Of a stretch of 64,000 nt of DNA, positions 3,468 through 49,400 are shown one piece after another (positions within the stretch are counted from its first letter, which is position 1; each line of letters starts with the position of its first letter). The notes under the pieces are model-generated. The model did not search any database. It was not told the DNA's origin and was given only the letters and a program-made list of their open reading frames with translations. The position numbers and the translations under genes are program-made. This stretch comes from Lineus longissimus. Lineage: Eukaryota; Nemertea; Pilidiophora; Heteronemertea; Lineidae. The DNA lies in the NCBI RefSeq assembly GCF_910592395.1, contig NC_088314.1, positions 2,294,001 to 2,358,000 on the forward strand, read 5' to 3'.

Positions 3468-3867
3468 GCATCTTTCTCCAACTTTTACACTGAACATAAT
3501 AGGTGTTTAGCTTTTCAAAACTGAAGAATAATAGAAAAGTGTAGTAAACTAAATAAAGCAGTGTTCAAAATGAAAATTTTGGAACTCAATTCAAAACATT
3601 TTTCTTGTCTTTTTTGACATATCTGGATGTCTTGATGTCATAGCAATATGTACAGGAAGAAACACATACAGCAGATGTCCGGAACAACTGTCTGTATTAA
3701 GATTGTGACAATTATCCTGCTGACTGCAGTACTGGATTATCACTCATGGGTTGGGTACTCTGGGTCGAGAAAAATGCTTTTCTTTGCTCCATGATAGACT
3801 GCTGTACAGCTGCATTCTGACAGCTTAGATTGTGACAATTGCCCATGCATTGTTGGAAATCATTATC

Positions 3868-11031: not shown

Positions 11032-11069
<38 letters not shown>

Positions 11070-19709: not shown

Positions 19710-19803
19710 CATCAGTTAGTTTCGTTTTGACCTTCGAGTATAAAAAAAACATGTTGGCTTTGGAATTCAGGTAAAGATTGCTTTCGCATTGGTAAATGGA
19801 TCA

Positions 19804-21328: not shown

Positions 21329-22226
21329 CTGCAAAGACAGCGAATAAGGATTAATTAAGGACGATATGAAAGAAACCGTTCCCTCCGAATCCAATCGAGA
21401 TTATGGTGGGTTGTGGGAGTGACGCTGTTCAAACATCAGCACATTACGCCGATGTCCAAGTTTTGAGGTCACCGATCAGGGAAGGATTCTATTCGGGCGC
21501 CAACACCCTCGAAACTCCCGCTGGACACGACTATGCTAGGGAGATACAATGTTTCGTCAGAATTTTTCTTTCTAAAGACAATGCTTTTTATAATCGTCTG
21601 GATTTTGATGCACGTGTTTTTGTAACTCCGGCTCTTAAAAGGGGTGACGGTTACGACTGGGGCAGCCGAGATTTCACTCGGAAGCGTTCGGTGCGTCTTT
21701 CTGGGTTCGGACACCCAAACTTTGGAACAGTCTCCCGGCTCAAATACTTATTTTAATGTTTTATATGTCAACAGGTTGGAAACGTCTGGATGTTGATGAC
21801 ATGTGCACCTTCGTCACTTTCTGCCGCTGTGCAAAATGTCGGCCTACCTAGTTGGTGCGCATGCCGCCTGCATCCCCACGATCCCTGCTTTTCTCCAGGT
21901 GCCATATAATAGGTCTCGACCTACATGGTTACCTGTGTAGTACATGTACATTTTATCATGTTGTATATCGGTTGTAAATGTCTTGTTATGTTAATTTTAA
22001 TATTGTACATGTATTTTACATGAATAAATTAATTAACGCAACTTATGCGTGCGATTTTATGGTTGTGTTTGAAATATGAAAGCAATATGGGAAAAGAACA
22101 TTTATGCAGATGTTCTTCTTCTAACCATTTCATGGTTGTTCTTGTAAAGAAAAAGACGTAAAGGGTAAGACGTAACATCGAAAATTTAAGTAAAATGTAG
22201 AAATCGGATTACTTGTAAATAAATAC

Positions 22227-22319: not shown

Positions 22320-24427
22320 CTCTGATCTTATCTTCGGCCCACCACACGAGTCCCAGTACCATCTCATACAATCTCACTGCCAGCGAGCATTCCCGTGATG
22401 TTTTCATGAAGAATGATATCACCTATAACACCCGGGAGGCGAGGTTGTTTCCAAACAATTATCAAACTTCAAAGATAATCTGCCTAATTGAGATCTCCAT
22501 CACGTTAATTGGCGACTTTGACCGGCAGCGTATTTGATCAATAAAATGATTTTAGACCAACTGTTTACGATATCATCTTGTGGTATTTGATATAATACTT
22601 ATTTGTCTTTGACACATTCAAATGCTGCCTTTGGTATTTTCATTTAAACCGATAAAATCTGACTCTAAGAGCTTTTTGATTTTATCCGAGCTCAATCTGT
22701 TAAATAAAGATGTTGTGTTTGACTGCGGCCCTTGGCATTGTTGATCAATAATATGATTTCAGGAACGTTTTGATTTCATCTCAGACAGAAGTGCAGAAGT
22801 CTGATATAAGTTTCAAGAAAGTTGTATGTGTTATTGAATAGTGCTGTATATTCACCGTTGCCATTATTATCACGCCAACTAAAAATGGATATAGACCTTA
22901 ATACGCGTATGCGTAAAGCACGCATCCTTGCATCTGTGCCTCTATACAGATCTAGATTATATTTTTTTTGCTGACATAGGCCGTCAATCAAATTGAAAAC
23001 CACACAAATAAGGAAAAAAACACAAACTCCAACAACACATTCTTGTCTAAAATTGTAATCAACCAATTTATATATGAGATACTTCTTCGAATACATTCCA
23101 ATATACAGGTTATCCTTGCCTATAACGTCTTTGGGTGACATTGCAATGAGGCCCGATTGGGTACATAATAGTGGTTCTTGAATAAACCATACGTGATCAA
23201 GCAAGACTTGGCCTAGAGGGTGGAGTTTATTACAAAGATTTCTTGAGTATTCACACCTACTCCTGATGCTACCACTTTGTTGGCCTAATTAAATGTATGG
23301 TACATCTTCAGTTGTACAATTTGCAAAAAGGTAAAGAAGATTTTTAAATTTATTTATCATTTATTATAGTGACTCGTGCACACAAATTATATATACAATT
23401 AATTAACAAATACAAATAAATAGAACACCCAGCCCTCTTGTGCGTATTAGTCACTTTAAACAATTAAGATGATACTGTGCGGTACATGATAGGTAAACAG
23501 AACGTTGTGCTTGGAACGGTATACGGTAAAAGAAGCAACGGAAAAAGAGACAACAGGTAAAAAAAGGAACGTTAAAAAATGAGGAGGTAATCCAGTAAAT
23601 CTTCCTATCTCAATCTGTATGGGCAAAACCCCGCATCTCATTTGGGCAAAGACTGCGCGCTGGGCTTTGTCGATAGCGGACGAAACGTACGGTTCCATAC
23701 CGAAAGAACATTTAAGTTTAAATTGGTCCTCAGTTTGGGTTTGCTAGCCACGAGCGCCCGCCATTCTGTTTGCTGGAGACTCTTTAAGTTTCTCTTGAAA
23801 ACGGCCACGTCGCACGAAGTGCAATTGTCATCATGCTCATTCATATCCAATTTGGTGAGGATATCTCTGATTTCTGATTTCTGATTACTGTTTGCCTGGG
23901 CCTTTCCAAGTTAGGTATAACCACGTGCGCCTCTCTACGAGTGATGTATGGGTTGTCGAACTCAAATATGATATGCATATTCCATTTCAGCCTCCATCGA
24001 ACACCTCTCCTGGAGGCCATCATCTACTAATTCAACGGGATATTCTGAAAGAAAGGTGCAAAGTGCGTTTGAGAATATAGACGCGCGTGTACTACTTAGA
24101 ATTTCTTGGCATACTCATATATGGGTATTTTACCTGTCCGATGGAATAATGTAAGAAGTATGTTGGACGCTAACGTATTTGAGCGCTTGCCCAACCTGAG
24201 AGATAAATCAACATAGTATGGTAAGCCTCGTGTCGGGCGATGGTGCCATTGCGCCACGTCCTGTGACGACACCAATTTTTACGTAATGATGTCGTCAAAC
24301 TGTAATCGTAAACGGAAAACGTTTTAACTTGCAAAACCTGCCTATCGAGCGCTTCAAACGATCCTATTATAAATCCAGCCGCGAAGATGCTCTCCAAAGC
24401 TTAAAAAAACTTATGATGTCAACTTAC
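22320..24427. other. Gap with weak exon candidates
   Basis: No confident gene. On the minus strand an open frame ends at 23,638 and reads KSEIRDILTKLDMNEHDDN, then CTSC and VFKRNLKSLQQTEWRALVA. It follows several overlapping CAG acceptor-like triplets but has a poor pyrimidine tract. Another minus frame ends at 22,776 (NFLETYIRLLHFCLR). Both could be terminal exons or chance. AATAAA hexamers on the minus strand cluster near 23,348-23,365. Confidence 0.3.
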
Positions 24428-24509
24428 CATGATGATGATAGTACCACCAGCCTATTACTAACATCAGCATTAGTAATAAAGGCACTACGACTACGGGTAG
24501 GGTAACATT
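24428..24509 (-). CDS. Isolated splice-bounded exon encoding a hydrophobic segment
   Basis: An 82-base interval lies between a strong acceptor (TTTTCTTTTCAG) and a strong donor (ATG/GTAAGT). In frame 0 it reads NVTLPVVVVPLLLMLMLVIG then WWYYHHH, which looks like a signal anchor or a single transmembrane segment. Its phases (0 in, 1 out) do not match exon 2 of the neighbouring cytokine-like genes. I cannot find sure partner exons. One phase-compatible partner is the frame ending at 23,638. It may also be a chance pair of sites. Confidence 0.3.
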
Positions 24510-24980
24510 CTGAAAAGAAAAGAAAAGCCGTTTCTTCAGATTAGCGAAGAAAACGATCTCCAGTCACTTTCCATGCTCATGGTCGGGACTCCTCGTCGAA
24601 AAAAGTGGCCCGTCCGAGATATAATCTTAGTTTATACCTCACTGTGTTCATTTACAGAGGCAGGGTTTGGGATGCCAAGTTTAAGTGTCGGTCACTTTAC
24701 TAACCAGGCTTTAAACATGTTAAACAACCTAATCCTTGTCAGTAACTTTAATGGCGCCAAGTTAAAGTTTGGTAACATATTTGAGCAACCAGATCCTGAT
24801 TATGACATAATCTGATTTGTCATGAGGACAATTCGAACGCAGGATCATAGATCCCAAACGACAATCTGTCCCGATGCAGTTACTATATAGTATTGTGACG
24901 AAAATTTAGCCAGCGTTTAGGGTGCTTGCCATTTTGCCTAACTGCCCAGTAGGCATCGCAAGCGCAATGGCAATAGACCT

Positions 24981-25658: not shown

Positions 25659-28600
25659 TCAAGTTAGGGTCGCGTACACCTGATACTGACCATCCTTATT
25701 AACATTACATTCATTATGGGCACCAGAATGACGCTCATTTCGCGATCGCTTACTCCGTTTTTCATGTTTGTATAATCTCGTGAAGGTCTTTGCAATTGAT
25801 CGAGAGATTTTTCTAAAGTTTCTTAAGATTAAAAACCCTCTGTTGTGTCTGACACTTGTCCTGTCGTGGCTGCCGTCACGCATCGTAATTTGACGTAACT
25901 GCCGGTAGATGTCGTCACTAATTGTCAATTTCCGGTCGGCCATTACTATTTGTAAGCTGCAGATGAGATCACAGACTCTGTTTAGAAGAGAGGTAATGTC
26001 AGGAGCAAATTCACCAGATTGAAAGAGATTCTCCGTTCTTAGAAACTCGAGCAGGAATGCTGAGGAGCGCAGGACGAGTTCCACTGTCTGGATAATGATT
26101 TTGTTCACCTGAAACAAATACGATAGAATAATGAACATGACTAGGCCATGGAGGTACATGTATTAATACCTCCATGACTAGGCCTAGGTGGCCAAGTTAT
26201 TGTTATTGTTATCAATACACATATGCATAAACTCCCTCCAATCGTGACGTCAGTGGACTCAAATATATGTAGAGCAGGGGACTACCGTCGTTTGAAGAAA
26301 AAAAACTTTAGAGACGATTAAATTGACTGAACTATACGCACCTCTTCATATGCGCCCCCTGTCCGCAGTTTCCTTGCAAGATGGCGAATGCTAGCCCATT
26401 TCGGTACATCAGGGAGACCGGGTAACTTCTGATTTCTCAGGCTATCGACGATCATTTGAACACCGAAAAACCGCCTTGCAATCTGAAATGTTTAAGTGAC
26501 CCTGGCTTGCTGTTGGTAATAAGTGATGATCATCACCCTAAGAAGGCCCCACGCTCAAACATTTTTTCACCTGTTACGGGCCCTCGAAACAACAGTGTCT
26601 CGAAAATATTGCGGCCGTTTTGTATATGTTTTGGAATCTTGGAATTGCAAGGTCTTTGAACGTGACCTTTGGCGTAAGTCACGACTTGACAAAAGACATG
26701 AAGGAAGACCTAATGTGTCAGTCATCCACTGATATTATACAAGCTTATCGGGTAAGCCGACGCCCCTTAAACGTGTTATTTGTAAGCGATTCTTCATGAA
26801 GCACATGACTGTGCTTGTACAGTTGAAAAAAACGGGTTTTTGGACAAGCCAAAAATGACGCGATGTTCGGCGAGGTCTGAGAAGATCCAGCGCAGAACTA
26901 CATTATACATGTGTGATACATGAACTTGACATTGACTTCACAATGAATACGAGGTAATTGCAATACGCGGTAATGTTGCCGTCGGGTATTATGCGGGGGC
27001 CACATTCAGGGTAACCAGCTTTCCCGGTAAGAAAAACTCAGGGAAGGTGCATGAGTAAAACATGCAAACCATCGATCGGACCAGTTTGTTGAGGTCGTTT
27101 ACACACATATTTTGGATTTTCTTGTTCGTTTTCGCATTTTCTATACATGAACTTGGCCTCACAATGAATACGAGGTAATTGCAATACGCAGTAATGTTGC
27201 CGTAGGGTATTATGCGGGGGCCACATTCAGGTTAACCAGCTTTCCCGGTAAGAAAAACTCAGGGAAGGTGCATGAGTAAAACATGCAAACCATCGATCAG
27301 ACCACTTTGTGGAGGTCGTTTACACACATCTTTTGGATTTTTTCTTGTTCGTTTGTTCGCATTTTCGTTACATGAACTTGACCTCACAATGAATACGAGG
27401 TAATTGATATACGCGGTTATGTTGCCGTAGGGTATTGTGCGGGGGCGGGCCACATTCAGGGTAACCAGCTTTCCCGCTAAGAAAAACTGAGGGAAGGCGC
27501 ATGAGTAAAACATGCAAACCATCGATCGGACCAGTTTGTGGAGGTCGTTTACACACATCTTTTGGATTTTCTTGTTCGTTTTCGCATTTTACTTACATGA
27601 ACTTAGCCTCACAATGAATACGAGGTACATGTAATCGCAATACGCGGTAATGTTGCCGTAGGCTATTATGTGGGGGCCACATTCAGGGTAACTGTCTGCT
27701 CCGTCATATTACTCTAGGCAACAATGACAGTCAACTAAAATGACTAGACAACTTAAAATATTACTAGAAACAGTAAGTACTTTACAAATATTTGTCGTAA
27801 AATGGGTGATTTCAAAGTCAGTTTTTAGATTTAGTTTTAGAACTTAATGGAACACTAAAACCCTTGATTAAACCAGCATTGAAATGAAGTGGGTTTAAGT
27901 TTAATCCCAGCTCGGTGTTATATTTGGAAGATTTGTAGTGCATTTTGTATTACCATTAAAACTAACACCTTGGGCATTAACACCGAGTGGATTTCAAAGT
28001 TGGTGTTGGTGTTAAGAAGGGAAAAAAATCATGTTGTTCGTACCATTTCAAGGAATAGTTGCTGGTATTTTGAACGCTGATGGGAATGATGATGGACGTG
28101 AAAGAAGACGACCAAATTTGTATTTCTGACAATTGTTTTCAATGTTTTGACAATCGAATTGGTCTTATCAAGACATAGGTTTTTAGGGGTAGAAATTAAG
28201 AACTGAGACTAACACCCAACACTAAAACCAAAACCGACTTTGAAATCACCCAATGTAGATTTTCGATTTGATGTTTTCGATTTGACGGAATGGAAGAGAG
28301 AACAAATTTATGTGATGATTCCGTGAGAACAACATTCCCCAGAGCGGACCCTGACGTGCATTTTGTTCTTGAAAGACAAGTTTTGAAATTAAAAAAAAAA
28401 CTTTTTTGTGTAGCTTCTTTTTTCTGGGTGGACATGTAAGCTGAATATACATTTAAAAAAGATGCAGATAGGATTTTTAAATGACACTTTGTTGGAGTGA
28501 ATATTTTTGCTGTAAACAGTGATATTTTCGCGAAGCTAATCAGTGAATGGGGAATTTGCTATTTTTTTATAGGCAGTAAAAGTGCCGCGTTTGCTGCGAA

Positions 28601-31600
28601 GCATTTTGTGTATAAAAAAATTGCTTTTGACGATATCGCGAGACCATTGCGAAAATTTAACGTTTTATTCATTTTCAAGGTGAGCTGGCTCATACTGTTC
28701 TATAAACGTTACAATGGGCGTTCCTTTTAAAAAATGTCATGATACATGTAGTTACTGACTTAGTCCTTCTTTTTTCTTGCTAGCAGGTAGATGGGATACC
28801 AGCTACGCCAGGTATATTGGCCAGTCCAATTAGTTGCTCCAAAATAAAAATTGAACCACGACAAATAAACCAGTCGGTAAAGTGGCGCAGTGAAACTTTC
28901 AACTTTCTCCAATTGTTGTTGGGTTGTGTTCGTCAACGACATGTTTGAACGATGTCCTTTCGCTTTACCTACCACTTTCGCTTTACCTACCAGTGATACC
29001 TCGGACCGTTACCGGGAAATTTCACTTCTATGGGATCACATGATCAATTATTTTAATCAGGTCAATAACTTTTGATGAGAAAAAACATTGATAAATAGGC
29101 CAGCCTGCTCTATCATGTGCATATAGTGGCATTTAGCCAAGTTTGCTTTGGTTTTCTGCTTGTTTACCACGTCTCGTGGCGTGAGATAAGATAGGCCGAT
29201 GGGTCAAGAACAAGAATGAAATATGTGACAAATTAGACAAATTTTCGTTTTTGGATGAAATAGGGGTGTTGATTTGAAAAGGAATTTTTCCCGCGCGTAA
29301 ATTTGCACAAAACCTTTAAAAGGGCCAAATGGTCTCCAATTGCGGGTCGAAAAGTTGATGTCGTCGATTCATGTCAACATGGGTATCAAAGTGAAGGTCT
29401 ATGAGAGTACTTTAACAGGGCATAGTTCCCCCTCCCCCCACCTTGACGTTCCCTGGGACCCCAAGGAGGGTCAAAAAGGGCAAAAGTCTGACCCCCTCCC
29501 TATATTAATATCAGTACAGGTGGATAAAAACTACTATTTCATTCGACGGTACTCGCACAAACCTTCATTTTGATACCAATGATGATACCTTTGGGCTAAA
29601 GATTGTCGAGGTCTCGAAATAAGGGTCTAAAAGGGGGCAGCCGACAGCCCTTATCCCGAAAGTGTCTTCATCGGAATCATTGTGAAGGCACGAGTATTGT
29701 CAAATAAAGCAGTTTTTGTCCATATGTAGTGCGCACAAATCTCGTGGTAGGATCCTGTTCGACCTTCCCCTGTTGTACACACAGTGGATTGAACGATTCA
29801 ACTATCAGCTGCCACCTATCAAATTACCGGTGTACTATTTACGTTCTGCTGATAGGTTCGTTCATTGTCTTGTTTCCAGATGGCGCTAAATTCGCTGAGA
29901 CAATACCACCATTGATTTTTAAAGCCTTTTAGCCAAGGAGGATACCGCGGTGACGTCACATCACGTGATCACGACCCATATTAATGATCGCTATGGCCAA
30001 TCAAATTCAGTCTACTGACAGCACCAGCACTAAACACATCTCCGTGTCTCACTGTCTGGTGCGCTCCTGTACACGAAAACACCAATAGACATGAAATATT
30101 GCAATACCTAGTATGGATTCTTCCTGTGTAAAATAAGATTTACAGAGCAGATTAACTTCCACGAATAAAAAAGACGTTTGGCGTGGCCAAAGTGCGGAAA
30201 TAATGTCTCCGCTAAAATACACTACGAAATACACTAGGCAATGCACTACGCGATACACGGTAGAGATGTAGTTGAGTTTGTTATTGTTTTGACTTGGAAG
30301 CCCGCCCATATCATAATATATTCATGTATTCATGAAGTATGAACTCATTTCTGTCCCATACAACTCTATGAACAGTCAATTTCTCCTTAAATCATCACGC
30401 GAAACCGCGATATCCGCAGGAAGATTTCGTTCTAGTGTCCGAAAATGCATGATCTTACAGGGGCGCTAACTCGACAAATAGAGGGGATCTATGGGGATCT
30501 ATGCGAGTTTTAGGTCCTACAGGTCTCGAACTTGTAAAATCTGTAAACATGCCTCCAAATCCCATTATGATAATGAATAGATTGCCCCATATCTGGGAGA
30601 CTGTTTTGAAACCATCGCTAATTTTGGAAGATCGGTGCCCGGTTTTAAAAACCTTATTTTTCCCCTTCAAAACAGCACTTTTCATTATTCAAATGATAAC
30701 TTATTGTCTGAAGACTTATTTCATAGCAGAAAAGTACTAATAACTCTGATTTGATGCGAAAAATCTAACTTTATTTGATGACTTGATTTTCCCTTGGCCG
30801 TGGATCGAGTTTGTTTGCAATATGCAGCGCCATCTTGGAAAAGCCGTGACGTCACCGCGGTATCCTCCTTGCCTTTTAGCATCAGATTTTGTCAATTTGT
30901 CACTGCTTGGGGTTGTGATGTGAAATGTGAAATGTGGGTGTGATATTGTGGACAGTCGGTGCAAGTAACTGGTGAAATTTAAACTGGTAGTTGATCACTG
31001 AAAGTTTTAGATAATCGGACAAATTGGATAGACGTTGATATTTCCACTCATTTCAACCACTTTCAAACGTCTCCTGTTGCGAAACTAGCAATCTTCAGAA
31101 CTTAATCAAATAATTTCTTTTTATCTGTAGACTTGCCACAACAAACATCTTTTCAATACCTCTCAAAATATGCATTTGACAGATAAAAACATACTCGCGT
31201 CTAAATGACAGGTCTGGAGATAGGTCTGGATCCTCCAATCTATGGATATTCAATGGTGGTTTTGTCTCTTCTCCAGTCAGATGAAGAGACATAATCTCTC
31301 TGCCATCATTGATTGCCATTATGTTATGTGATCAAAAAAGAATACCAGAATCAGCCTCCACAACCTAGGGCCAGGCCGATCTACAGCCTACTATGGGTGG
31401 AATGGTGCATTTGACCGTCGATTTCTGGTTTCTTGCAAAATTCTCTGTTAGACATTCTGTAGCACTCTATTGAAAGAAAACAAAATGTATAAACGGACTA
31501 CAAGTTTGGTTGGGAGGCCAATCGCCACTTTCAAGCTGCACCTGGGTTCCGGAACAAAAGTGCCAATGATACCGCTATCTAAAAAATCGCGAAGGCTTCT

Positions 31601-33814
31601 GACCGATTTTACAGTGCTTACGTAGTTGTCCATGGTAAACTTGATGAGCTTCTGTAAGCTTCTTGCAATCCATGCAATGATCTGAATCGCCCTATCATCA
31701 CCACTGTCATCGGCAGGACTGGCGGGTTGATTCACGGGCTGTGGTTTCGAAGGCGCTTTTTCTGGGGGTTGACCACCAGAGCAAGGATACCTGAGTTGGT
31801 TATCCCATTTCACAGCATGGCTTACCAAGATCATGCATAGCATCAACAAAACGCCGAATGGAACAGCTGGAAAGAAACAAGAGAATAATAATTATGCATT
31901 TTTATAAACACTATAATGGTGCATGCCGCTGCTGCAGTCGAAACATATTCTTTTCTCCGAAGAAGCCGATTTCGGCACGTTCTGTGGAAGCAGTGGGTAA
32001 TATCTGAAATTGGATTATGTTTCTTGTGGGCATCAGCTCCGCCTTCTTTGGTAGCTTAAAATTGCCATATGATTCCTTTTAGCACGTGATTAGTGTTTGT
32101 ATTTCAATGTGAATGGAGTGAAAAAGTTGGACGACACAAACACTACCAAATATCGAGTTACATAACGAATAGTACAAGGCCTTCTGTCGACTGCCACATT
32201 CACTGACAATGTGGGGTCCATGAAACGACTTGAACAAAAATCCATTACCGATATACAGGTCGTTCACAAGGATTCCGAACATAGTGGTCACAGATAATGG
32301 CCCTGACTGTCATGAATTTAAAGAATTTGCTGGACATTATGGGTTCAAGCACATCCCGTCGTCACCACGTTTCCCACAAAGTAACGGTAAAGCCGAAAAA
32401 GGGGTTCAGATAGTCAAGCGTTTGATTATGAAGGTTATCGAGAGTAATCAAGATCCTGAGTTGGCGCTGTTGCTATACAAGGCAGCACCACTTAAGAGGG
32501 GTAAGTCTCCAGCGGAGCTGATGTACAATAGGCATTTGAGGACCAGAGTCCCAATAGCTGTTAGGTCAGAGCCAGACTCAGGTGTGGATCAGAAATGGAA
32601 GTGTTGAGGGCACAGAAGGCTCAGTATGACAAATCTGCCAAAGACTTGTTACCACTTAGACCAGATGATGTTGTTCGTCTTAGGCATCCACCCCAATGTA
32701 AACAGTGGAATGTTAAGGCAAAAGTCAGAGGAGAAGTGGCTCCCAGGTCATATGAGGTTGTTACTAAGGACAATCGGGTCTATAGACGAAATAGAAGACA
32801 CTTGTTAAAGACTACTGAAGAGTATGTACAGGAACCAACTAGTCTGTCTGATCAGCAATATGCTAACATATTCGATGAAGTTGAGCAACAGTCACAACCA
32901 GGTTCAACCCAGTCACAACCAGGTTCAAATCAACCTAGACAAGCTCAGTTGCTTCCTCAATCTACAGGTGTTAGGCGTTCGGGTAGAAATGTCAAGCCTC
33001 CTACTAGGCTTATTGAGAGTATGCCCTGATTAGTCAGGAACAGTATGAAATAACTTTGAGACTCTGTAACAAAGTGAAGTCATGAACAAGGACAATCATT
33101 ATGACAATCTATAGTTATTATTATTGTGTCAAAGATAGTTTGTGTGATTAAATTTTTAGTTAGTTATATTTTCTACAGAAGTTGAAGCTGGAAAGGCATC
33201 ATAATAGTGCCTGGAACAATTTCAAGGGAAGAATGTGACAATAATCATGAAAACAGAATCAAAATTGTACGCAGGAATGGACTGCACATCCCCATGATCA
33301 AACTTTTCCCCGAATCCTGGTGGATTCTTTATAGTTGTCGTACCGCTAGCTATGAGGACTATACTGCATGGGATTTGGCTTTCAAGTAGCGCATTTTGAC
33401 ATTTTTAAATGCATGTGCACAAATATGTAGTCGTTTTCTAGTACATTTTTACCAGTCTTCAATAAAACAGCAGTCGGTGAGCAAGAATAGGAAGCTTTGA
33501 CCTATCCAAAACAAAAATGGCTGTTTCACCATTTTTGTAGCTTCTGAGATGATGACGGTTACCTAGAAATGTATATTTTTCAAATATCTAGGCCAACGGT
33601 TAGCCTCCTTTGTTTTCAAACTCAGCTAATCAACAACAAAATTCAAATTTCAAATTTTCAAACATCTAGATCAACCAACCAACATCTCAACAAACTGTTG
33701 AAATCGATGCACAGGTTACCAGTTACCGGTTAACTGCTGTTACTTTGCTGAAAATTAATCCGCCGGCATTTTGTCCTTACCGTGTCCAAAAAGGATCTTC
33801 AAAGGAGATTTCAT
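25659..33814 (-). CDS. Cytokine-like secreted helical protein, 289 residues (gene 1 of tandem pair)
   Basis: Four exons: 33781-33814, 31622-31866, 26342-26482, 25659-26108; phases 1, 0, 0; 870 coding bases including stop. Exon 1 (MKSPLKILFGH) joins exon 2 to complete a signal peptide of about 29 residues. Residues 30-69 are a Pro-rich linker with one Cys. Predicted amphipathic helices lie at about 70-105 (A), 140-166 (B), 174-198 (C) and 229-256 (D), with a GLP motif (115-117) in the long A-B loop. The tail is basic (KRSKRSRNERH). The layout is that of long-chain four-helix cytokines of the IL-6/CNTF/CLCF1 class. W77 stands 17 residues from the exon 2/3 junction, as in the second gene and, by recall, in CNTF (WLARKIRSDLTALTESY, junction after Tyr). 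Helix D (AKTFTRLYK) resembles CLCF1 AKDFNRLKK. The FxxK receptor motif of LIF/CNTF is absent. The exon chain is firm; the family is inferred. Confidence 0.7.
26918..27695. repeat. 225-bp tandem repeat, about 3.5 copies
   Basis: The block ACATGAACTT recurs at 26918, 27145, 27370 and 27595, a period of 225-227 bases. Each unit contains CACAATGAATACGAGG, a TATTATGCGGGGGCCAC block, CCAGCTTTCCCG and CATGCAAACCATCGATC. Copies are about 90 percent alike by eye. The array lies in intron 2 of the first cytokine-like gene. Open frames across it on the minus strand are repeats of one another and are not genes. Confidence 0.9.
27700..29930. other. Intron 2 of cytokine-like gene 1, middle part
   Basis: No convincing exon. 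It contains an AT-rich stretch and a minus-strand frame from an ATG at 28,942 to a stop near 28,760 (YRLVYLSWFNFYFGATNW and a KKKD end) without clear splice sites. I see no known domain. A direct duplication of TTTCGCTTTACCTACCA lies near 28,958-28,992. Confidence 0.5.
29925..30880. mobile_element. 938-bp TIR element with perfect 9-bp target duplication
   Basis: The element runs 29934-30871. Its ends are perfect 26-base inverted repeats starting CAAGGAGGATACCGCGG and continuing TGACGTCAC. It is bracketed by identical 9-base copies of CCTTTTAGC at 29925-29933 and 30872-30880. Nine-base duplications point to a Mutator-like (MULE) or Merlin-type element. There is no recognisable transposase frame, so it is non-autonomous. 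The perfect ends suggest recent insertion. It lies in intron 2 of the first cytokine-like gene. Each end holds a CRE palindrome (TGACGTCA) and a CCGCGG site. Confidence 0.92.
32269..33240 (+). mobile_element. Ty3/gypsy-type retrotransposon remnant (integrase C-terminal half)
   Basis: Plus-strand sequence encodes the second half of a retroviral-type integrase core: VVTDNGP with the second catalytic Asp, SSPRFPQSNGKAEKGV with the Glu, then an SPAELMYNRHLRTRVP block. After a frame change around 32,595-32,607 it continues through VVRLRHPP and NRVYRRNRRHL to a stop at 33,027. The first catalytic Asp, reverse transcriptase, protease and gag are missing. A purine-rich AAGGGAAGAA followed by TGTGACA near 33,222-33,240 may mark the polypurine tract and LTR start. 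It lies in intron 1 of the first cytokine-like gene, opposite to its transcription. It is dead: 5'-truncated and frameshifted. Confidence 0.85.
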
Positions 33815-36800
33815 GCTGGGAGACCCACAGCCAACTTCAGATGGGACTGCCATATGAAAAACCGGTGAAAATAACACAATTAAAGGGGTAGCTATCAAAA
33901 TTGGACGGCTGCTGAATGCATAAAGATCACGTCTTTTTATGATGTATTTCATGCATACTGTCGACATCCGCAAATGAAAAGGCCACGTACCCGTAACAAA
34001 GTTTTGAGCCATTTTCCCTTTAAAGGGGTTGTGTGAATTAGGGGTCCAAAACAGGAATAACAAGTTAGATATCAGATTGTGCTGTACAAAACGACGAGGC
34101 ATTGCTCGTGAAGAACTATTTTGCTGACCTAGCCGCACCAATAATATTTGATATTCATAAGCTTTTTTTGGAAATGATGTCATTAAAGGAGATCTGTCAA
34201 CCTTTGAATATTAAGGTGCTCTTGTTTCCGAAAATGATCCTGTTGGAAATTTATGCATCTGACATTTGCACCATATTTATTTTTGGCAATCTTTTAAGAG
34301 ATCATATGCATGAAAATTTGTATACTTTGATAATGAAAAGGAAAAGCAACCATCTTTTGAAAAAAAGGAGAGAAAAGTAAGGTGGTGTAATTGTTGAAAG
34401 TGTTCTGTTGCCAAATTTCTAACAGCAAACATGTTTCTTTTCTACCTGCTGTGTGTGATCGAGAATGAAGGTGACAAAATCTTCTTTGCAATGTTACAAC
34501 GACCAAGACTATTTATATAAATTTCTAAGTTTATTAAAATTGCCAAGTCTCTAATTCGTAGCCGCACTGGTATCCTGGTTTTCCAACTCTCACAAATTTT
34601 AGCCCAGGTTTATATCCTAAGGGTATTTTTCACCTGAAGTTACATTAAATTGTGGATGTCAGTGCTGATAATGAAGTGATGGCAAAACAAACTCAAATAA
34701 ATTAAAACCTTAAAGAGTTGCTTCTCTGAAAGTATCTGCAACAAAAGCAGTTTGAAGTTGGATTGGGGGTCTCGGTGTGGTATTCCACAGCTCAACGCCT
34801 GCTGCAGCAAACCCTTGGTCAACTAAACCTTGTTCTTTCGACATTTCTCAAACAAACCTCTAGACTTTCATAAAGTGCTTGCCTTACCAATTGAACAGTC
34901 AGAAAATCATTGCATGGTGCAAGCATTTCCAAGTAAAAAAGTTTCCAGAAATTGCTTTGATGCATAGAGCGAATTTTTATTGATATGTAAAATCTATCAT
35001 AGGTAATATTGATTGCTTTACTGAACGCTTACACCATGGACAATGAGGCCCAGGTATTGACAAGCCATACCAACGCCCAAACAATATTTTTTAGTCGTCT
35101 CCAAAACATTGGTTTTAGCCATATGTAATATAGAACTCGCACATCAGCCTGCTTAAAATAGGTATTGGACCTGAAGTCCGAATTTCTGAAATTTTGGTAT
35201 TGAAGATCAATGCCATTTCCTTCTCGAATGCATCGGCCAGTAAGCATTAAATTAAGCCAATGTAGCTAAAATAATTCTTTACCTCTAATCTAAAGTCACC
35301 TCTAATTTCAAAGCGAATAAAGGGGCTAAAATTTCTTGTTATTATACTTCTTGTGTTAGAGGTCGGTGATGTAACCCGTCGTCACTCTGACAATATTTTA
35401 TTGAACCAAACTTTAGGAATTAAAAGGAAAATGAATTTCATTTTCATCTAGAATGCCCTTTACCATCCGTCAGCCATCATAAATGAGAGAAGGAATCACG
35501 AAGTGGAAAAGGAAATTTCTTTGAATTTGTTGGGCTTTTGATTACTCAAGACGCAATTCGGGTTTTGAGTTGTAGGAACTGTCTTTGATTTTCAGTTAAG
35601 GAACTATCATTGAGTTGCAGATAAGGAACTTTCTTTAAGTTGGAGTACATGAGGAAAAATTTGTGTGCTGCAGAACACTAGGTGGTAGAAAAGCAACTAT
35701 CTTTCGATTGCGGAAAAGGAACGATATTGTGATTTGCAGACTATAAATCATTGTTAGTTGCAAGAAATGAACTATCTTTCAGTTGACTTCAGCCCATTTT
35801 GTCCATTTTTCGAAGAACGTCGTAGTGGAGTTCGTCTAGAAGCTTTGGTGGAAGTGGACTTGCAGGAAAAGCTTTATTGTGCATGCACTTCATCCAGTAA
35901 CCAAGGTTTGACTGATTGAAATCGATGAGTTGAAACCTTTTATATAATATAGCTACATGTAGTAGTGTTTGGCGGATTTATTTCGATGGGTGGCGTCGTC
36001 AAATCGAGGATTCAGTACAGGAATATAAATTTCCAGAAAAACATCCGGATCAGTTGGTTATTTTCGAATAATAATGTTATTTTTCAAGCAGGAGCGCCAG
36101 ACTAGGTTGTATAAAATTTGAATTTGAATTTCTGATACATGGTCTCGGTCACCAGTATGTGGATGTTTTCCATTTTAAATACGTATTTTTCATGAATTTT
36201 GAATTTTGTCTCTATAAAAGGGAACTAATGATGAAGTTTTAGTTCAGAAGCCTTAATAGTGTGGCCTCACAGGTAAAAAATGACCTCCAAAACTTCGAGA
36301 CCCCCAAACTCTGAAATTATCACGGTCAACCAACAACGAAAATGTCATAGTTTGAAGAACTCCCACAGGTCTAATATAGACCTCAAGGTATTACTTTCAT
36401 CGGAACGTCTGGGAAAAGTTATGAGCCGCTAGATGCCACAAAATTAACTGATTAATGCATTAGCATTTTATTACTCGCGTGTACGCAGAAAGCTTTCTTC
36501 AATGATGTGAAAGCAAGGCATAATGTACACCAGGACAAAATACTTCTGCCTACTCAGTGCATGTTATTGTGGCATCCCTTAGACACGAGATCATCTTTTA
36601 GGCAAGCTTTCCTAGCCTACTTCGCCTAGTTTTTCTTAGAAGGAGTGAGGTTTTTGAAAACCCTGAAACTAAAGTGACCCTCTACGGTTTTATCGTCCCT
36701 CTTCAGAATTTTCCGATGGATTCCAACTTCATCCCTGCCCATTCGAGTGAATCGTACTCGTGTGTTCTATAAAATTCCATTCAGATATACAGGTCGTCCT

Positions 36801-39011
36801 CGGGTGCTATAGCATTCCGCGAAGTTACTATTTATAGCTCACATAGTCATTTGCATAAGATATTGATGACGTTTTAGTCACGTGACAGTCGGACAGCGAC
36901 ACTTATTTCTACGCATTTGAGCTTATTTCAAAGTCAATTATCTTTGACCCTGCATTGTTTTTACCATGAATGATACCATAGAGTCAGAGAGAGAAATATT
37001 CAGAACAATTATGTAGTATTTCCAACACTTAGACATGTGCCAGATTGAATCTAACTGCCCTAGTTAGAAAGCCTGAATCAATAACGAAACCGCCTGTTTG
37101 TCCGACATTGCCTGTAATTCAGAGATGGGGAAATAGAGGGCAGCAGCTGCAGTGACGTCATCTTCGCGTAATGCTATTGTGACGGTGACATATAGTGCAT
37201 TGTATTATAATTGGCTATTTATACTCAATGAACAGTGTTATTTAAATGCTATTGTATGCACAGGTCATCACAGTCATTGGCTAAAGATATGTAAGCCACA
37301 CCAGCGGGTATTTCTAATGTTTTGTTTTTTTAGTCAATGTTCCAGGGCGGTAATACCATTGCAGATTGTGCATGACTAGTCACAATTTAGGCGGGACCAG
37401 AGCCCACTTAGTCCTACTGATAAATGTATGGTCCTACTAGTACATAAATGATAGGCTACCGGTGTTCACGTGGACATCCCGTAAATCCAGGCCGACGGTC
37501 AACCTATATACAACAGCTGTTCTTGGAAGTTGGTAGATCATGCTGTTAGTAGTGCTATATAGTCGACATAACGAATCATCTCCAAATTGCTTGAAGCCTT
37601 GAAAGATTTTGTTTTACCTGGCAAAACCTCGCCAAAACTCTGTCTGTTACAAACTTTCTGGCAACATCATCCAAAATAGATTGTTTTTTTGACATGGTTT
37701 TTCGTCGTTCAGATTGGAGGGGTTCAGTGAGGGATGAAACAACTCCATCTCTCATGGCTTCAAGCAATTTTTAAAGGTTTTCCCTCAAGGGATCCAAACA
37801 AATTAAAAGTCAACTTTAGAAAATTTTATTCAATATCTTAGATATCATACAATACACGTTCATGCACGCTCTTCGAATAGAAGATACATATAACAGTTTC
37901 CTTCACTTTGATGAAAACACGATGATGACACACACATCTCGCATTAAAGGGGCATTTCCAATGCAGGGCCAATTCAAAAGTTAGCCCATACTTGATTGAG
38001 ATTCCCTTTAAAACTAGATTTGTCATTATTTCTCCAGTAAAAGATATTTTTTAACTCAACTTAAGTGAGGGAATACCTTTCGTCTCTTAATGCTGCCACT
38101 AGAATGCATACATATGCGCGTATACATGCAACATGATGCGAATGATTTCAGCACGTCCCTGCAATGTTTGGTTGACAACGTTTTCTTCAAGTTAGCAGTA
38201 ACTGCTAGCGCTGCTAAAATGCACATCGTATAAGCATGCAACAATGCTAAAAACCGACAAGGTGAATACGTGTACAACTTGCATGCAAATGCAAAAACCA
38301 TTCGTCATGAAGCTAAAATACTTGTATACCTAAAATCGCATTTGGCGAAAGGAAAATGCCCTTCAAATTGAGGTCAATACGCTGCTTAATATCAAATTAG
38401 TCTCAAACATACGCAAAACCACGTAACTATGAAGATGCTATGAGTGAAATCTTACTGAGAGATTCCTATTACGTTGTGTGTACTAATGTTTAGAGGTGTA
38501 GCCCTGAAAATCTGGATGAACATAGTAAACAATACAGTCCTGCAGATTTCTCTGTTACTTACAAAATGTTCAAAATGGAGGTAGAGATCATGTCCGGCAG
38601 ATTAAATAAATTTGTATAATTTTAACAATATAATTAAAGAATGAAAACGTGAAGGAAGAGCCATGGATATGCGACTATATCATTTCACAGAATAACGGCT
38701 ACACACGTATACCGGGTACATGTTGGTACAGCAGGAACCAGCCTATGTGCTGTACTCTTTTACCTGATGTACTCATTTTAAGACCAACCGTATTGTTCAA
38801 TGACTGTTTTTTCCACACCGGTACTCATTATAAATTGTTGCTGAGATCTTTGAAAGTGGCGCTACAGATATACATACGCCTTCAAGACTGCGTTTTTTTT
38901 CAAGAACGCAAATGTACCTTTCCTAATCAAACTAGTCGCCAACTGGGCAACCAAGTCATGATGTGGCACTGTTGGCGATACTTGATCCCAATCGCCAAAA
39001 ATAAGTTCCAT
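33815..39011. other. Spacer between the two cytokine-like genes
   Basis: No confident gene in 5.2 kb. It should contain the promoter of the first cytokine-like gene; I see no clear TATA box within 100 bases of its ATG. A CAG acceptor-like site just before that ATG (33,848) suggests a spliced leader. Several short minus-strand frames (34,294-34,506; 34,640-34,822; 35,029-35,247) are AT-rich and unlike known families. A more exon-like minus frame at 37,621-37,767 is listed separately. Confidence 0.45.
37621..37767 (-). CDS. Possible exon or decayed paralogue exon between cytokine-like genes
   Basis: A minus-strand frame from an ATG-rich start to a CAG/GTAAAA donor in phase 0 ends with ILDDVARKFVTDRVLARFCQ. 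This predicted helix ends at a phase-0 donor, as exon 2 does in both neighbouring cytokine-like genes, and shows VARK where they have IAR or KAK. There is no signal peptide before it, no Trp at the key place and no following exon that I recognise. It is either a decayed third copy or chance. Confidence 0.2.
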
Positions 39012-42000
39012 TTATTCTCCAATGTTAAACCTGCCTTCAACTGATGAGCAGAGTTGGATGTAGTCTCTAATGATAATATAGGATTGGTTGTCCCGCATGC
39101 TTTTCTCATCATAGTGATCAAACTCGATGTTGTCAATGTTGTCCAACTTCAGGTCGTGTTCATCCATGTAGACCTTGAGAACTTCCCTGATGATCTTATG
39201 CTGTTCTATCGTTGAGTACAACGCGTTCTGCATTTCTGGATCATGGTTGTAGTCGGTCTCCTCCTTGATGATGTGTTTCAGAAATTCGTAGGTTTTGGCA
39301 AAGGCTCCGCTGATGTCAACAACAGCTTCATTGAGCTGAAAGTATGTATAAACTGAATGTAGGAACATAGATCGACGAAAACGTGTGAAGACTCGTAGCA
39401 GGTATATACATGTACTATAGTACAAGGTAGTTTGATTTATCGAATCTGATGACATATGGATCGGCCTGTCATGTTTCACAAATGGAATTGCTGTTCAAAG
39501 ATTGTCAAAAAGTGAAACTTCTGACACTATTTTTGCTACTTATAGAAGCACTGTAAGAAAAAATAATGTTATCAGCTGAACCGTTATCTCTTATCTCAAT
39601 TTGTTAATAAATTGAAGGATGAACTACCACTACACATTCCTAGTTGACGCTTTTGTTTTCAGCCACACGATCCGAGAAAGCGTTGTAGAGCACAGGTGGT
39701 TTACCGGATAAGCGAGGGGGTCATTTTCAAAGGAGGTCATTGACACGGTGGAGGAAAAGGAGACCCGAACATACCTGGTCTCTTTCGATTGCTGCAATCG
39801 TTTTATTGGCGAGGTCGAATGGCATTCCTTCAATGTGATACGGTGCAAGGTCCAAGACGCTCTGCCTGTCTGACCCTAACCTGTGTTCAAACTGAAAGAA
39901 AACCGAAAAGAACATTTTAAACAGATAATTGGCTATGAATTTTAAAAATGTTTCGTTGAGGTCGACGTTATCAAGATTGTCAAGACAGTAGAACAATGGG
40001 AATTTCGGCCTACTAGGTGCGAGCGGGCTGCTTTGTTCAAAGACACTAGAACGTGTAGTAGGCCAGGCCTGAATTCTTTTAACTGCGTAAGGGGCAAATC
40101 AACTCAAAGATAATATGTTGTGCTCGATAAGTTAAAATTTGTTGACTAACCTGTCGATTATTAACAATCTGTGCTGCATTCTTGGCACATTTCGCTTTCC
40201 ATGCTATCAATTCTGATATCTTGTTGGCCTGTCTCGATTCAGCGCTTGGCATGGTGATGACGATTAAGCACGTTACCAGAAGACTTGCTGCAAATCAAAG
40301 GAATTGATTCAACAAAGGTCTCACTTATGATCAGTACTTATATTCCCTGGGCCAATGATCTAGTTCTGAGAATGATTTTCGAGACTTTTGTAGAACAGGG
40401 TCTATGCCTGACCCACTTAAGGTTAATACTGTAGTCATAAAAGCTGACTTTGGTTAGCCCTATTGATATGCCTTAAATTGATATGAATATGAGCGAGATT
40501 ACCGGGTATCTCTTTTTCTGGGATACGCGAACTACATGTACATGAACATGTAAAATAGAAAAACAATGATTTCATTAATGGCAGTATTTGGCCCACACAG
40601 TTAATTGAGTACATGTATCATAATTGATTCTCGTAGTGTGCCACAGAAGAGGCGGTCCTTTCCCACGGCAGTTGCATTCTTTTCTGTCACTTTGCTACTG
40701 CAAGAGAAGTTGGGCTAACATGCGGCTTCATTAATGTCCAATGCTGTCAATCGTCATCCCCAAGATGCCCAAGGTGACTTGACATCGCCTCAGCTCATGA
40801 TCTGCCGTCGAAGAAGACTGGAATGTCAGACTGAAGCCCTTTTCACCAGACTCTTGAAAATAAAGGCTTTTGAGCTTTTTGAAAAACCTTCTTGGTCCGT
40901 CCCGCTATTGTTCGAACATTTTGAACAGGCTTTTCACCGACTTGGGTCAAGTCACACAACTTGACTTTGATAAAAATCAAAATAAACTCTTCAAATTATA
41001 ACACATCAACATTCTTTGAGAAACTAAATCGATGATCAATTTTATGTGTTGTACTCACTAGTTTAGAGACAATAATCACTCATTCAAAGATGGCACGAAT
41101 TTGGATCCTGTTGGAGATTCTTTTTTAGATTATGAAAAACGAACGTATTGCTTGCTCCAAGATGTCTAATTTGCTAATGCATGGCAGGAAACTGAGTTTA
41201 AATGCCAGAAGCATTGCACGTGACCACTCCAACGGTTTTCCCGCCCCTAAACTCCATTATGATAATTTAGGAAATATATCACTCGAAAAGGCCTAGATTC
41301 CATTTCCCCTGATTGTTCGACTATCATGTTCACGTTGTCGTACATGTAGTATCGAAAACGATACTAGAACAAACAGTTGAGTGTTTACTACTATTTATTT
41401 GGTTGTTTTATTTAAGGCCATCACTGGGTTACGTGTATTAATGACCTCATCTAACCACTTAATGATAATGGTGAATGCTTTTCACACACGCTCGTGATCA
41501 GTTTCAATTGCCGAACCACTATGAATTACACCAGAATTAATCAACAGCCTGTGGAAACTGCATGGTTTCCCGCATTCGCCGCCCAATCACGCTATATTTC
41601 TTTTGTTGCAGGGTGTCGCGTCATAACCATTTCGGTAATTAGGCGATAGTCCATTTATCCTGTCTATTGGCATGACAGAAACAAAACCAAACTATTGATA
41701 TATACCGAAGCTTTCTTTAAATTATTTCATTGCAGGTGGATTTGCTTGAAATATCTATCACATTGTTTTGAGATAAGGGGCATGATTTATGAATGAGTTA
41801 AATTATCTAATAGGATTATAATTCGAGAAAGTAGGCTTGTCCGTGTCTTAAGACAGCAAGGTCGCAAGGTAACATTACTTGCCCAATAACTATTAAAATA
41901 TAATTTACCAACGTTGCACATGTGGTATTTCCCATATTAGCTCAAAAACATCTGTAAAAACCCTTGGTAATATTTCGGCAGATGATTTAGGGAAACAAAA

Positions 42001-43842
42001 CATAAGCCTACCTTTAGGTTTATTCTAATTAAATTTGTATTTAACTTCTAGGGTTCTTTTGATTATGTTTGTAATTTCACCACCATGTCTCGGCCTACTC
42101 TGGTTGAAACCATTGTGAGGCGACTTCAAATGACACAACACTCAATAAGGGCCGGTGTAATGTTTTTGAGTGTTTCTGTTTTTGAGTGTTTCCCCTCATT
42201 GTTTGGGAACGCTCAAAAATAGATTGACTAGTTTTTCTGTGTATCCCCCCTATTGAAAAGTCATGGTCTCTCTAGCTGCCTGTTGTTTGGAAACACTGAA
42301 ACATGGGGAACAACCACAGATGTTACACCGGCAAACAAATCAGTCACTCACGGTCATGATAAACTGACATCTTAAGTGGCTTTTCAAGTTGTGTTATATC
42401 AAATGAGACTCATCTACGCGTGCCAATAACGATTGATTCGAAAAATCAAGTTCCTGTGTTGGGTGGTACAAGTTGGGATCGCGCCACTTATCCGTCAACG
42501 ACATTCTGGCTGACCATAAGTTTGAAGTACTGGCTGGGAGAAATGACCCAGTTCCCCGGTCCGGTCGGCCCGTCTGGGCAACGATGGTCGCCTAGTTTGT
42601 TTAACTCTTGAACAACAGTTGCAGAGTCATTCATTCCTGACCCTCAGACTTAAGTTAGCAACAATATTTTAGATACGAGTGATGGTGTGTTGGGGTGATT
42701 GCGAACTGAAATATGAAGGGAGATATGTGATCAGGCTATCCTTCTCGAAGAAGGGCATATTGCTAAGGCCAAGGTATTTTTAGTTTCCACATCAGCATCA
42801 TGACAAATGTGTGTTGTTGGGTTCGATTCCAAGTCGGGCCAAACCGCGGTTCTTGCCTGCACCGATCCATTCTGACAGAATAGAGGCCCCCTAGGACAGC
42901 TGTTACCACCTGGGTGAGTACAATATTAGAAATCGCTAGAAACCCTCAGATGGCCCGACCAATCGCTCCCTACCTTCATCCCAGCGTAATCCCATTTTGA
43001 AGTCACAATAGGCGTCTCTAAAAATTAAGTTGTTCTAAATCTCCACGACACTTCTCCTATAGTGCCTGCAGCCCTCAAGAGAAATCAATTTATATCTATT
43101 CTAAACAGTTTTTGTAACATATTTATGTAGAATCTGCAACAAAATTAGGGAATTCTGTGAATGAATCATATCAATTAGAATTAAGGAAAAGATAGATGAA
43201 AGCCCCCAAGTCATATACCAGAGATACCAGAGATGCCAGAGCTCCGGACTAGATAGTTTCGGAAGTAGTTTTGTTGGTTTCGAAATAATTATGGATAAAT
43301 GGGGTCTTTTCACACCCGCTTATCTACATAAAGTTTGCAAGCCAGTGATTTAGACTGTTTTCATAGCTAGCTTCCTGGTAACCAATAGTTAATGTAACAA
43401 ATGTATTTCAAATTAGATAGAAACGTCTTATCATTATTGTTGTTGTTGTTCATTTTTATCATTATTCTTCAAACCTCTGGACCAATTAGCGCATGATGGA
43501 TTATGTAGCTGTGAGGGCGGAATGTAATGTACCTATACATCATAGTCTACTACCACGGATTCAAGACTTCATTTCTTTCAATTCCGATATAAAAATACAA
43601 TCATTAGTAGAATATGTTTAAAAAATGAGAAAAGGGTGGCATTGTTTATTGTTTCACTTGGCCATCTTAGCTAGTTTTCGGATTGTGGTGCTCAGACCGG
43701 AGTGATAGAAACGGTGGCTAGACGAATTCATCGACGATGTCTGGAGCCTGCATTGTGCGCATGCGTGAACTGAGCTTTGGAGCCGATGCCTTTCGAGTCT
43801 ACAAGAAAGCATTTACCGATATTCCTTACCTTTGATGTCCAT
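39012..43842 (-). CDS. Cytokine-like secreted helical protein, 196 residues (gene 2 of tandem pair)
   Basis: Four exons: 43830-43842 (only MDIK plus one base), 40151-40287, 39775-39891, 39012-39335; phases 1, 0, 0; 591 coding bases including stop. The signal peptide is MDIKASLLVTCLIVITMPSA. Predicted helices: A about 25-50, B about 75-114, C about 120-149, D about 167-192, with a GMP motif (72-74) in the A-B loop. Exon 2 ends LIAWKAKCAKNAAQIVNNRQ: Trp 34 stands 17 residues from the junction, as in gene 1. GMP begins 22 residues after the junction, exactly as GLP does in gene 1. CNTF also has GMP in this loop, by recall. An ultra-short first exon that splits the signal peptide in phase 1 is also typical of IL-6/LIF-type genes. 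Mature length (about 176) suits a long-chain cytokine. The protein is acidic where gene 1 is basic. The exon model is firm (TATA box, splice sites); the family is inferred. Confidence 0.75.
42151..42332. mobile_element. Short TIR element (GCCGGTGTA family)
   Basis: Begins GCCGGTGTAA and ends TTACACCGGC, 182 bases, inside intron 1 of cytokine-like gene 2. The arms also share GTTTC/GAAAC blocks (GAGTGTTTC, GGAAACACT). A fragment of the same family lies near 52,568-52,625 (AGTGTAACGACTTGGAGTG, CCCCTTGTTGTTTG). It is non-autonomous. Confidence 0.65.
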
Positions 43843-46473: not shown

Positions 46474-49400
46474 TCACAGAAGAGTACATGTTTCACTCTT
46501 TTGATATCTTCCCTCCTGCTGCTTTTTCTCGTCAACTGAAAAAGCATTGGCATTACTGTCACGTGTTTTAGCCGCATCGTTTTCACCAAGTCCATTTTGA
46601 ATAGAATTCTTATCACCAATTGCCTTGTTATCTGCAGTAATTTCTACTAAAAGTGTTTCTTCAGTTTGTTTCAGTGCAGTTGTACTGTCCTCAGTTTCTT
46701 TACCCTCATCAATTGGTGTTATTTTCCTGTTGATAGGTGAAAGTACGGGCCGGTTGAACTCCGTGAAGACCACACTCTCCCTCTTCGTCCGTGGCGTGCC
46801 CGGTGGCGGTAGTGGAACGCAGACATCGCCTTTTCCAAGCAGAAAGTATGTCGTCATCTTACCCTTGCCTTTCACTTCTATCTCACCTCTTTCTTCGAAG
46901 GAGAAGCCCTTACATCTAACACAGCTGAAAATAATAATTTTGCAAGGTAAAGATTTGTTGATTTAAATCACCAAGGACACTTTGTTTGACCAACGACAAA
47001 CGCAAAGAAATACTCCTTTGGTGTTACGAACTATGGACATTTAGTTTCAGCTTTTCCAGATTGAGGCGCTGAGTCCTCAAGTCAAAGGAGTATTAAATAG
47101 CCACATACCACATGTACATGTTTATGGAGACATGTACATGTTTATGTACGCACGTACGTGTTCATGTACATTCTAGAAGGAAGCCGGAAAATGAAGATTA
47201 TTTTCATTACCCTTCTCGTAACTTACCTATAGGTGGAAGAACTTAGATGAATTCTTCCTGGGATGCTGTGACTCTCCATCCGGGATGCCGTGTTCACTGT
47301 ATCGCCAAACAGACAATACCTTGGCATCTTCGCGCCCACTACACCCGCCACGACCGGGCCGGAATGGATACCCACACGGATCTGAAGAGTTGAAGGTAAC
47401 TAACTACTTAGGTTGCAAGTCACAAGCATATTTTAAGAATACACCTCTCGGGCATCTTCGCCTCAATCACACCCGCCTTGACAGGACATGAAACTGCAAA
47501 GGGGAAGAAAACACTTCACTTCACCTCAGGACCAAATTCTAGAATTGGTCGCTATCGAACTAATTGATGTATCATCAAGTCATACGGAAGTTTCTGCGTC
47601 CAGCTAACTGATCTGCGGCGGACATTTTAACAGGAAATAAGAAGGTACATGCTCTCGGGCAGTGAACGCTGGTTGTGCGAAATCCCTTTTAATTCTCTTA
47701 AGTAAAAAGTGTCTGGGCCAAATGCAAAAGTACCTGTAAAGGCAATCCACTTGCCGGCGACGTAACATGGCTTGCCTCTTCAATCATGTCCATTGCCATA
47801 TCTGCCACGCTTTCGGCATGGGAGTCGCTCACTTCAGGGACACCACCTACAACCATGTAAGCATCACCAATGGTTTCGACCTGAAGAACAAAAAGACGGA
47901 AACATTGCGGATCTGAGAGAAAGGTTAAGTCATCTTTGCGGCCTGACATTGCCACATTCATCGGACAAGGCCATGAGAGTCAGGTCAAGACGTACGAGTA
48001 ATACACCTTGACGTAGTTTATTTCGTTCAATCGCTAACAATCAAACTTCAGAAAACACAATTATGGCAAGGATCCTGTTATCACCAATAGAAACAATCGA
48101 CAGGTTTGGAAAGTCTTGTTTGAAGAGTTACGAAAGACGAAGTACAAAGTATGTTGAATGTGTATTTTGTAGACGGTTTTGTTTTGAAGATTTCTCCGAC
48201 TCCTCCTACACCTACATGTAAGTTTAAAAGATGTCTTGTAAATGATTTTATTAGCACATTGACTGGATGACATTGCGCCTTCGTACTTTGTACTTCGTCG
48301 CCGTACGGGTTGCGAACTTGCCTATAGATCGACAAGCCCACCCCTCTACCATAGGTGTACAGCATCTAGACCCTCAATGTATTGACATTGCTCAGCTTCC
48401 AGACAACGCAATGTATGGGCGGAGGCTACGGAGGCAATACCGCTGGAAGTTCAGTATGGTGTACAGCGGATCGGAGCCTATTTCAATGGGCTAGCCTGTC
48501 TATTGTATCGCCATCTCGCTTGCCATCTCGAGGCTTCCAAATATATCAAATTGTAAAACCTTCAATTGGCAGACCACGCAGCCAATAAACCCGTCAACTT
48601 CCATCCATGTCAACGCATACATCGATGAATAGCGACAGGAAATCCATGTAAAAACCATATATTAGGTCACCATTCCTTCTGGTGTTTGGTTGAGAATAGG
48701 ATATGGTACATTTGCATTTTCTATTACGTTTCTGCATGATTTAGGTAGGTCAATCATCGGTATAGTATCAAATAACATTGTTGGTTGCATGCTCGCATGT
48801 TAGACCGTGCCTAGGTTGTATTACCTTGTAAACATTATTGACGGTAGTTGCCTGGTCGAATCGTGAGTATAATGAGTTGAGCATGTTGACTACGTGGATT
48901 GGCGTACATGCAGCAGCTATGTTCGTGAACGTCACGATATCACTAAATAAGATTGTCACTTGGTCGAACTTTTCTGAAAGGCAATGGAGTGAAAAGTTAG
49001 CATTGATGGTAAACATGAACCAAAGTAGTGACACTATTCAGATCGTGGTCAGCTCGGTACCTTTTTCCTTCACAACTACTTGTTATACATGCTTCCCGAA
49101 ATTGGTGGCTTGCATTGGAACTAACTTTTTCCCCCTTGTTCGTCTTCAAAGGTATTCAAGTGTGTTGGTCAACCATGACTATCTCCTTTGTCCCTCCACC
49201 ATAAGGCCTAGTTTCCCCTTATGACATCACTATTTCGGACACTCGGCGCCCCATTTCTGGAAAGGTGTATAGTAACGTCTGTGGCGTGACCTGGTTCTCA
49301 CTCCCTTCAGGTATCACCGCTCTCACGAAGGGAGCTATTGAGAACCACTTGTCTCCTCTTGATGTTTAAGGCGAAAACCACAGACATGGAGACAACTCCG

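Follow-up and report, generated by a model that had tools for sequence, protein, structure and literature searches.

Candidate IL-6/CNTF-like cytokine genes within a paralogue family of the nemertean Lineus longissimus

Genes of class I long-chain cytokines follow a common plan, with a phase-1 intron in the signal peptide and, further on, phase-0 introns that follow helix A and precede helix B, and the GH, EPO and leptin types share a phase 1-0-0-0 gene plan. In insects, the Unpaired cytokines are the ligands of Domeless and the known IL-6-like ligands of invertebrates. Drosophila upd3 and IL-6-like signalling are treated in two reports (PMC7286907, PMC12419797). According to a 2026 survey covering 18 metazoan phyla or subphyla, IL-6-family ligands occur in vertebrates only, molluscs possess receptor-like, JAK and STAT genes, and IL6R-like receptors reach back to Mollusca (PMC13203501); nemertea is not mentioned in it by that word. 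Activators of arthropod JAK/STAT are described as largely unknown in a shrimp study (PMC9195186), and the open-access literature found on helical or IL-6-like cytokines of molluscs, annelids, lophotrochozoans and nemerteans reports, in its titles and the opening lines of its abstracts, no such ligand. Here we describe two neighbouring genes, A and B, on the minus strand of a 64,000-nucleotide window (the whole stretch of DNA analysed, C7:2294001-2358000) from the 391-Mb assembly of the nemertean Lineus longissimus, of which contig C7 makes up 21 Mb. We estimate at about two in three the probability that both encode secreted long-chain four-helix cytokines of IL-6/CNTF type, as members of a nemertean family that counts seven genes or more on a single chromosome.

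The exons of the two genes, in window coordinates, are these:

43830..43842, minus: gene A exon 1, MDIK plus 1 nucleotide, phase 1; good start context at the ATG and GTAAGG as donor; absent from the NCBI model
40151..40287, minus: gene A exon 2, remainder of the signal peptide, then helix A, its Trp 17 residues before the junction; phase 1 to 0; NCBI protein agrees from an internal Met onward
39775..39891, minus: gene A exon 3, AB loop, GMP at residue 22, phase 0-0; agrees with the NCBI protein
39012..39335, minus: gene A exon 4, predicted helices B, C and D (from a low-confidence model), stop
38764..38776, minus: alternative candidate for gene B exon 1, unproven, MSTS plus G
33781..33814, minus: candidate gene B exon 1, unproven, MKSPLKILFGH plus G, GTAAGG donor
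31622..31866, minus: gene B exon 2, signal peptide, Cys/Pro-rich linker and helix A, Trp 17 residues from the junction, phase-1 acceptor
26342..26482, minus: gene B exon 3, AB loop, GLP at residue 22, then PKW..AY resembling CNTF/CLCF1
25659..26108, minus: gene B exon 4, predicted helices B, C and D (from a low-confidence model), basic RSKR furin-like site, tail, stop

Gene A corresponds to LOC135491434, an uncharacterized protein of L. longissimus that was the sole match among 70 candidate annotated proteins compared (100% identity across 92% of our model). Its 180-residue NCBI protein joins exons 2, 3 and 4 at the very junctions that the original prediction, made from the letters of the window alone, had proposed. 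Because the NCBI protein begins at an internal Met, and so lacks both exon 1 and a signal peptide, the tiny phase-1 first exon is a model of that prediction and of the present analysis only; its ATG lies in a good start context with a TATA box 107 nucleotides upstream. Exon 2 of each gene carries a hydrophobic leader, called here, as in the paralogues below, by eye and from a simple count; that of gene A is absent from the NCBI model. In gene B, exons 2-4 have sound splice sites, open frames and matching phases, and none of 356 candidate annotated proteins (only sizes of about 153-487 amino acids considered) matched it. The proposed architecture holds apart from the first exon of gene B, for which we listed seven phase-1 candidates of at most 110 nucleotides with a plausible donor, none of them with a TATA box within 260 nucleotides; those at 33814-33781 and 38776-38764 seem likeliest. 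Two further observations concern the introns of gene B. Open frames on the plus strand at 32224-33029, between genes A and B and in the likely first intron of gene B, look by eye like the 3' part of a retroelement pol/integrase (the first frame has no Pfam match), and the intron before exon 3 holds, at 26950-27700 on the minus strand, several repeats that are almost identical, each a few hundred bases long (by eye).

The two genes share a precise layout, as predicted. Their later junctions are all phase 0 with AG/GT sites, counting back from the exon 2/3 junction, residue 17 is a Trp in either gene, and residue 22 of exon 3 is the Gly of a Gly-hydrophobic-Pro motif, GMP in A and GLP in B. In 400 resampled introns, a usable phase-0 exon with G-x-P at exactly codon 22 arose in 3.5% for the gene B intron, and the chosen exon 3 of gene B ranked first of 22 candidate exons against exon 3 of A and against the AB segments of CNTF and of CLCF1. 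Over the 24 residues up to the junction, A-B (p 0.0007) and B-CNTF (p 0.0011) exceeded shuffles, A-CNTF did so weakly (p 0.025), and no pair with LIF did, CNTF-LIF included (p 0.16-0.25). The A-B alignment stays in register across exons. The spacing in CNTF differs: in the CNTF sequence we checked, GMP begins 17 and not 22 residues past the junction, with the junction placed after residue 38. The class I gene plan is found in A with its modelled exon 1, in B from exon 2, and in two of the paralogues described next (P25 and P27, exons 2-4), and the exon phases of A and B fit class I long-chain cytokines.

A search of the genome with gene B gave nine matches, three of them gene B itself; five of the other six lie on contig C7, and although their E-values are weak (0.021-8.5), the frames resemble terminal exons of the A/B type:

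C7:1721031-1721228: P24, terminal exon, LTISDAIYQRIRQ versus LTISDDIYRQLRQ of gene B
C7:2699019-2699330: P26, terminal exon
C7:17611939-17612145: P28, terminal exon
C7:17625378-17625629: P27, terminal exon
C7:20447580-20447948: P25, terminal exon

The motif LTISD.IY is common to P24 and gene B. P25, P27 and P28 are plainly alike, and what probably ties them to A and B are motifs in helix D, the exon with G-x-P, the exon plan and the contig in common. Upstream of four of the five (P25, P26, P27 and P28) lies an exon 2 with a hydrophobic leader, a phase-1 acceptor and a phase-0 donor; three of these four exons contain YWNDPC, and all four have an aromatic residue at the junction. A G-x-P exon 3 was found for three of the five, as GTP at residue 22 in P24, where x is not hydrophobic, and as GLP at residue 23 in P25 and P27. 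The Trp at position 17 was seen only in A and B. An additional exon 2 lies about 6 kb upstream of P25, the 20.4-Mb member, and therefore may mark an eighth gene. A and B, presented in the original prediction as a tandem pair, are part of this larger family on the contig. That gene B is instead non-functional, a chance assembly of exons or a decayed copy, could be argued from its missing exon 1, the lack of a matching annotated protein and the retroelement-like frames between its exon 2 and gene A; its open exons with good splice sites and agreeing phases, the first rank of its exon 3, the register kept with A, the motif common with P24 and the exon plan kept in other paralogues make this very improbable.

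We compared single genes with vertebrate cytokines against 90 Escherichia coli decoys. The scores of gene B with CNTF, CLCF1 and IL-6 exceeded all of them (0/90 each) and lie inside the range of known family pairs, at an identity of 18-23% to CNTF and CLCF1. With CNTF and CLCF1 it also beat block shuffles, in which local helix patterns are preserved (p 0.005); for IL-6 the result was only p 0.058. Gene B also stood above controls against a profile of the seven human IL-6-family members. A profile of the seven worm genes matched that human profile with a probability of 70% locally (177 columns) and 75% globally (203 columns), helix D being placed on helix D; the reversed worm profile reached at most 0.2%, and none of 197 column shuffles and none of 200 block shuffles approached its score. 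Among 101 single targets (the 7 human members, 4 others and 90 E. coli open reading frames), the worm profile ranked CNTF first both locally and globally, CLCF1 second and third, and LIF 10 and 12. EPO, GH1 and leptin came at 72, 78 and 31 locally and at 9, 40 and 67 globally, and plain shuffles gave gene B scores of 4.6 for CLCF1, 4.1 for CNTF, 3.3 for IL-6, 2.3 for OSM, 1.6 for GH1 and -0.1 for EPO. The genes might still form an independent class I long-chain branch outside the IL-6/CNTF branch and beside the GH/EPO/leptin types, whose gene plan is similar, but the local profile ranks and plain-shuffle scores leave little room for this, and we give it hardly any weight.

Several results weigh against the IL-6/CNTF assignment. 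Against a profile of CNTF, CLCF1 and CT-1 only, gene B stands out globally (10.1, 0/16 controls higher) but not locally (15.4, 8/16 higher). Once its tail is removed, gene B ranks 3/93. In the decoy comparison it matches neither LIF (17/90 decoys reach its score) nor G-CSF (17/90) nor CT-1, and OSM weakly (3/90, or 5/90 without the tail). Gene A alone fails to beat the decoys with CNTF (7/90) and CLCF1 (6/90), and its hhalign ranks are 71 and 72 of 93; the five paralogues, taken one by one, score at most 0.8%, with no significant similarity to vertebrate cytokines, and Pfam matched neither A nor B with E values allowed up to 10. CT-1, LIF, OSM, G-CSF and IL-6 do not stand out among the 101 targets of the worm profile, those other than LIF ranking between 28 and 66. 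Leaving members out lowers the probability of that profile, to 0.6% when B is dropped, 2.6% when A is, 0.4% when both are, 0.4-0.9% when P24 and P26 are, and 5-12% when P25, P27 and P28 are; with CNTF removed from the target it is 7-13%, with CNTF and CLCF1 removed about 2% or less, and for the profile lacking B, 18 and 12 of the 200 block-shuffled versions of the full profile reached its score. AlphaFold models, from single-sequence input and unreliable, have a predicted local distance difference test (pLDDT) score of 44.8 for the LOC135491434 protein and 45.1 for gene B exon 4, and Foldseek found no significant match with either: for A it listed many ferritins, with leptin at rank 14 and IL-6 at rank 27 of 50.

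These low-confidence models place helices at the expected A, B, C and D positions in A and at B, C and D in gene B exon 4, and for the latter CNTF (1cnt) came fourth of 41 in Foldseek (top probability 0.30, E = 3), which can be taken as a hint only. From the leave-out and shuffle results, the family resemblance points to CNTF/CLCF1 and is borne mainly by gene B, the other genes apparently attaching to B through similarity to one another and a shared gene plan. As an alternative, a family of helical secreted proteins specific to this lineage (such as effectors of mucus, venom or immunity) and not homologous to cytokines, with a CNTF likeness born of convergence between amphipathic helices, would account for the low-confidence folds, for the lack of cytokine similarity of A and the five paralogues individually, for a profile signal that hangs on few members and for the fact that the sole productive protein database search matched the same species only. 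It sits poorly with gene B exceeding all decoys and, for CNTF and CLCF1, the helix-pattern-keeping shuffles, with the seven-gene profile beating 200 block shuffles over some 200 aligned columns, and with exon phases and a G-x-P motif that fit class I cytokines, and we regard it as unlikely, though worth keeping in mind. The IL-6/CNTF-like cytokine remains the best of the readings considered, short of family membership, which would take a confident fold or a receptor. The paralogue family, and the similarity that gene B shows to CNTF and CLCF1 under decoy control, give it more support than the original prediction had at hand; the predicted folds are of low confidence, and gene A on its own, Pfam and the exon-by-exon receptor search lent it none.

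As IL-6/CNTF-type ligands, the proteins would lose their signal peptide and helices A-D would pack as a bundle; in gene B an N-terminal Cys would probably pair with a helix-C Cys, and the C-terminal tail would be trimmed at RSKR. The mature protein would bridge gp130/Domeless-like receptor chains and thereby activate JAK and STAT. STAT_bind exons occur at one place on contig C13 (three matches). In the same genome EpoR_lig-bind, sought exon by exon as a sign of a gp130-like receptor, had no match, which also counts against the cytokine assignment. Fibronectin type III (fn3) domains are plentiful, and a dense run of fn3 exons at C15:10301110-10434263, holding most of the 150 matches listed, is a very large fn3 protein or a cluster.

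Other features of the window, all on the minus strand, are as follows:

2759-17832, 46474-46962, 61680-62339, minus: neighbouring genes ST7 and MCM3AP/GANP, one exon of a nucleotide cyclase, and one resembling Spec3 that falls under the Pfam cut-off
19800-21330, minus: small secreted protein containing Cys and, as a basic site, RRRKR, its exons recognised by eye; Pfam matched nothing
23641-24520, minus: transmembrane exon, then a tail exon, apparently from a membrane protein of single-pass type, immediately downstream of gene B; no ectodomain exons seen, sub-threshold Pfam match only (IL32, E 0.13)

It is slightly better than an even bet that nemerteans possess an expanded, true CNTF/CLCF1-related family (at least seven genes, one chromosome), that an IL-6-class ligand with the phase 1-0-0 plan predates the protostome/deuterostome split, and that this is the missing ligand of lophotrochozoan gp130/Domeless-like receptors. 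Such lophotrochozoan ligands, which are testable, would fill a ligand gap and help to date the IL-6 class, and exon phases together with the G-x-P loop, instead of sequence search, suggest a route to them elsewhere.

Among known systems, Unpaired was covered through Pfam, which includes that family and matched neither gene, and not by direct comparison. With IL-6 and G-CSF the worm genes share the tiny phase-1-split exon 1, modelled in gene A, and phase-0 introns that follow helix A and precede helix B, and G-CSF has GIP in the corresponding loop, but they lack an intron between helices C and D, and gene B scores with IL-6 and not with G-CSF. LIF and OSM share with gene B an N-terminal Cys before helix A and a helix-C Cys pair (CDLIC in gene B, CRLC in LIF), and OSM also has a basic cleavage site after helix D, whereas the score with LIF is not significant and that with OSM is weak. 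CNTF and CLCF1 differ in that the FxxK site III motif is absent, by eye, where helix D begins in both worm genes; this motif marks LIFR-binding members and is not found in all family members. Compared with the human genes, the worm genes also have an extra intron before helix B and, unlike CNTF, which is itself without a secretion signal, a signal peptide, and gene B carries the basic RSKR site and tail. Yet CNTF and CLCF1 are the best human matches of gene B and, locally, of the worm family profile: gene B has W-I-A-R in helix A (W-L-A-R in CNTF) 17 residues before a phase-0 intron, its AB loop reads G-L-P (G-M-P in CNTF, T-L-P in CLCF1) followed by W and then AY, and its helix D resembles theirs.
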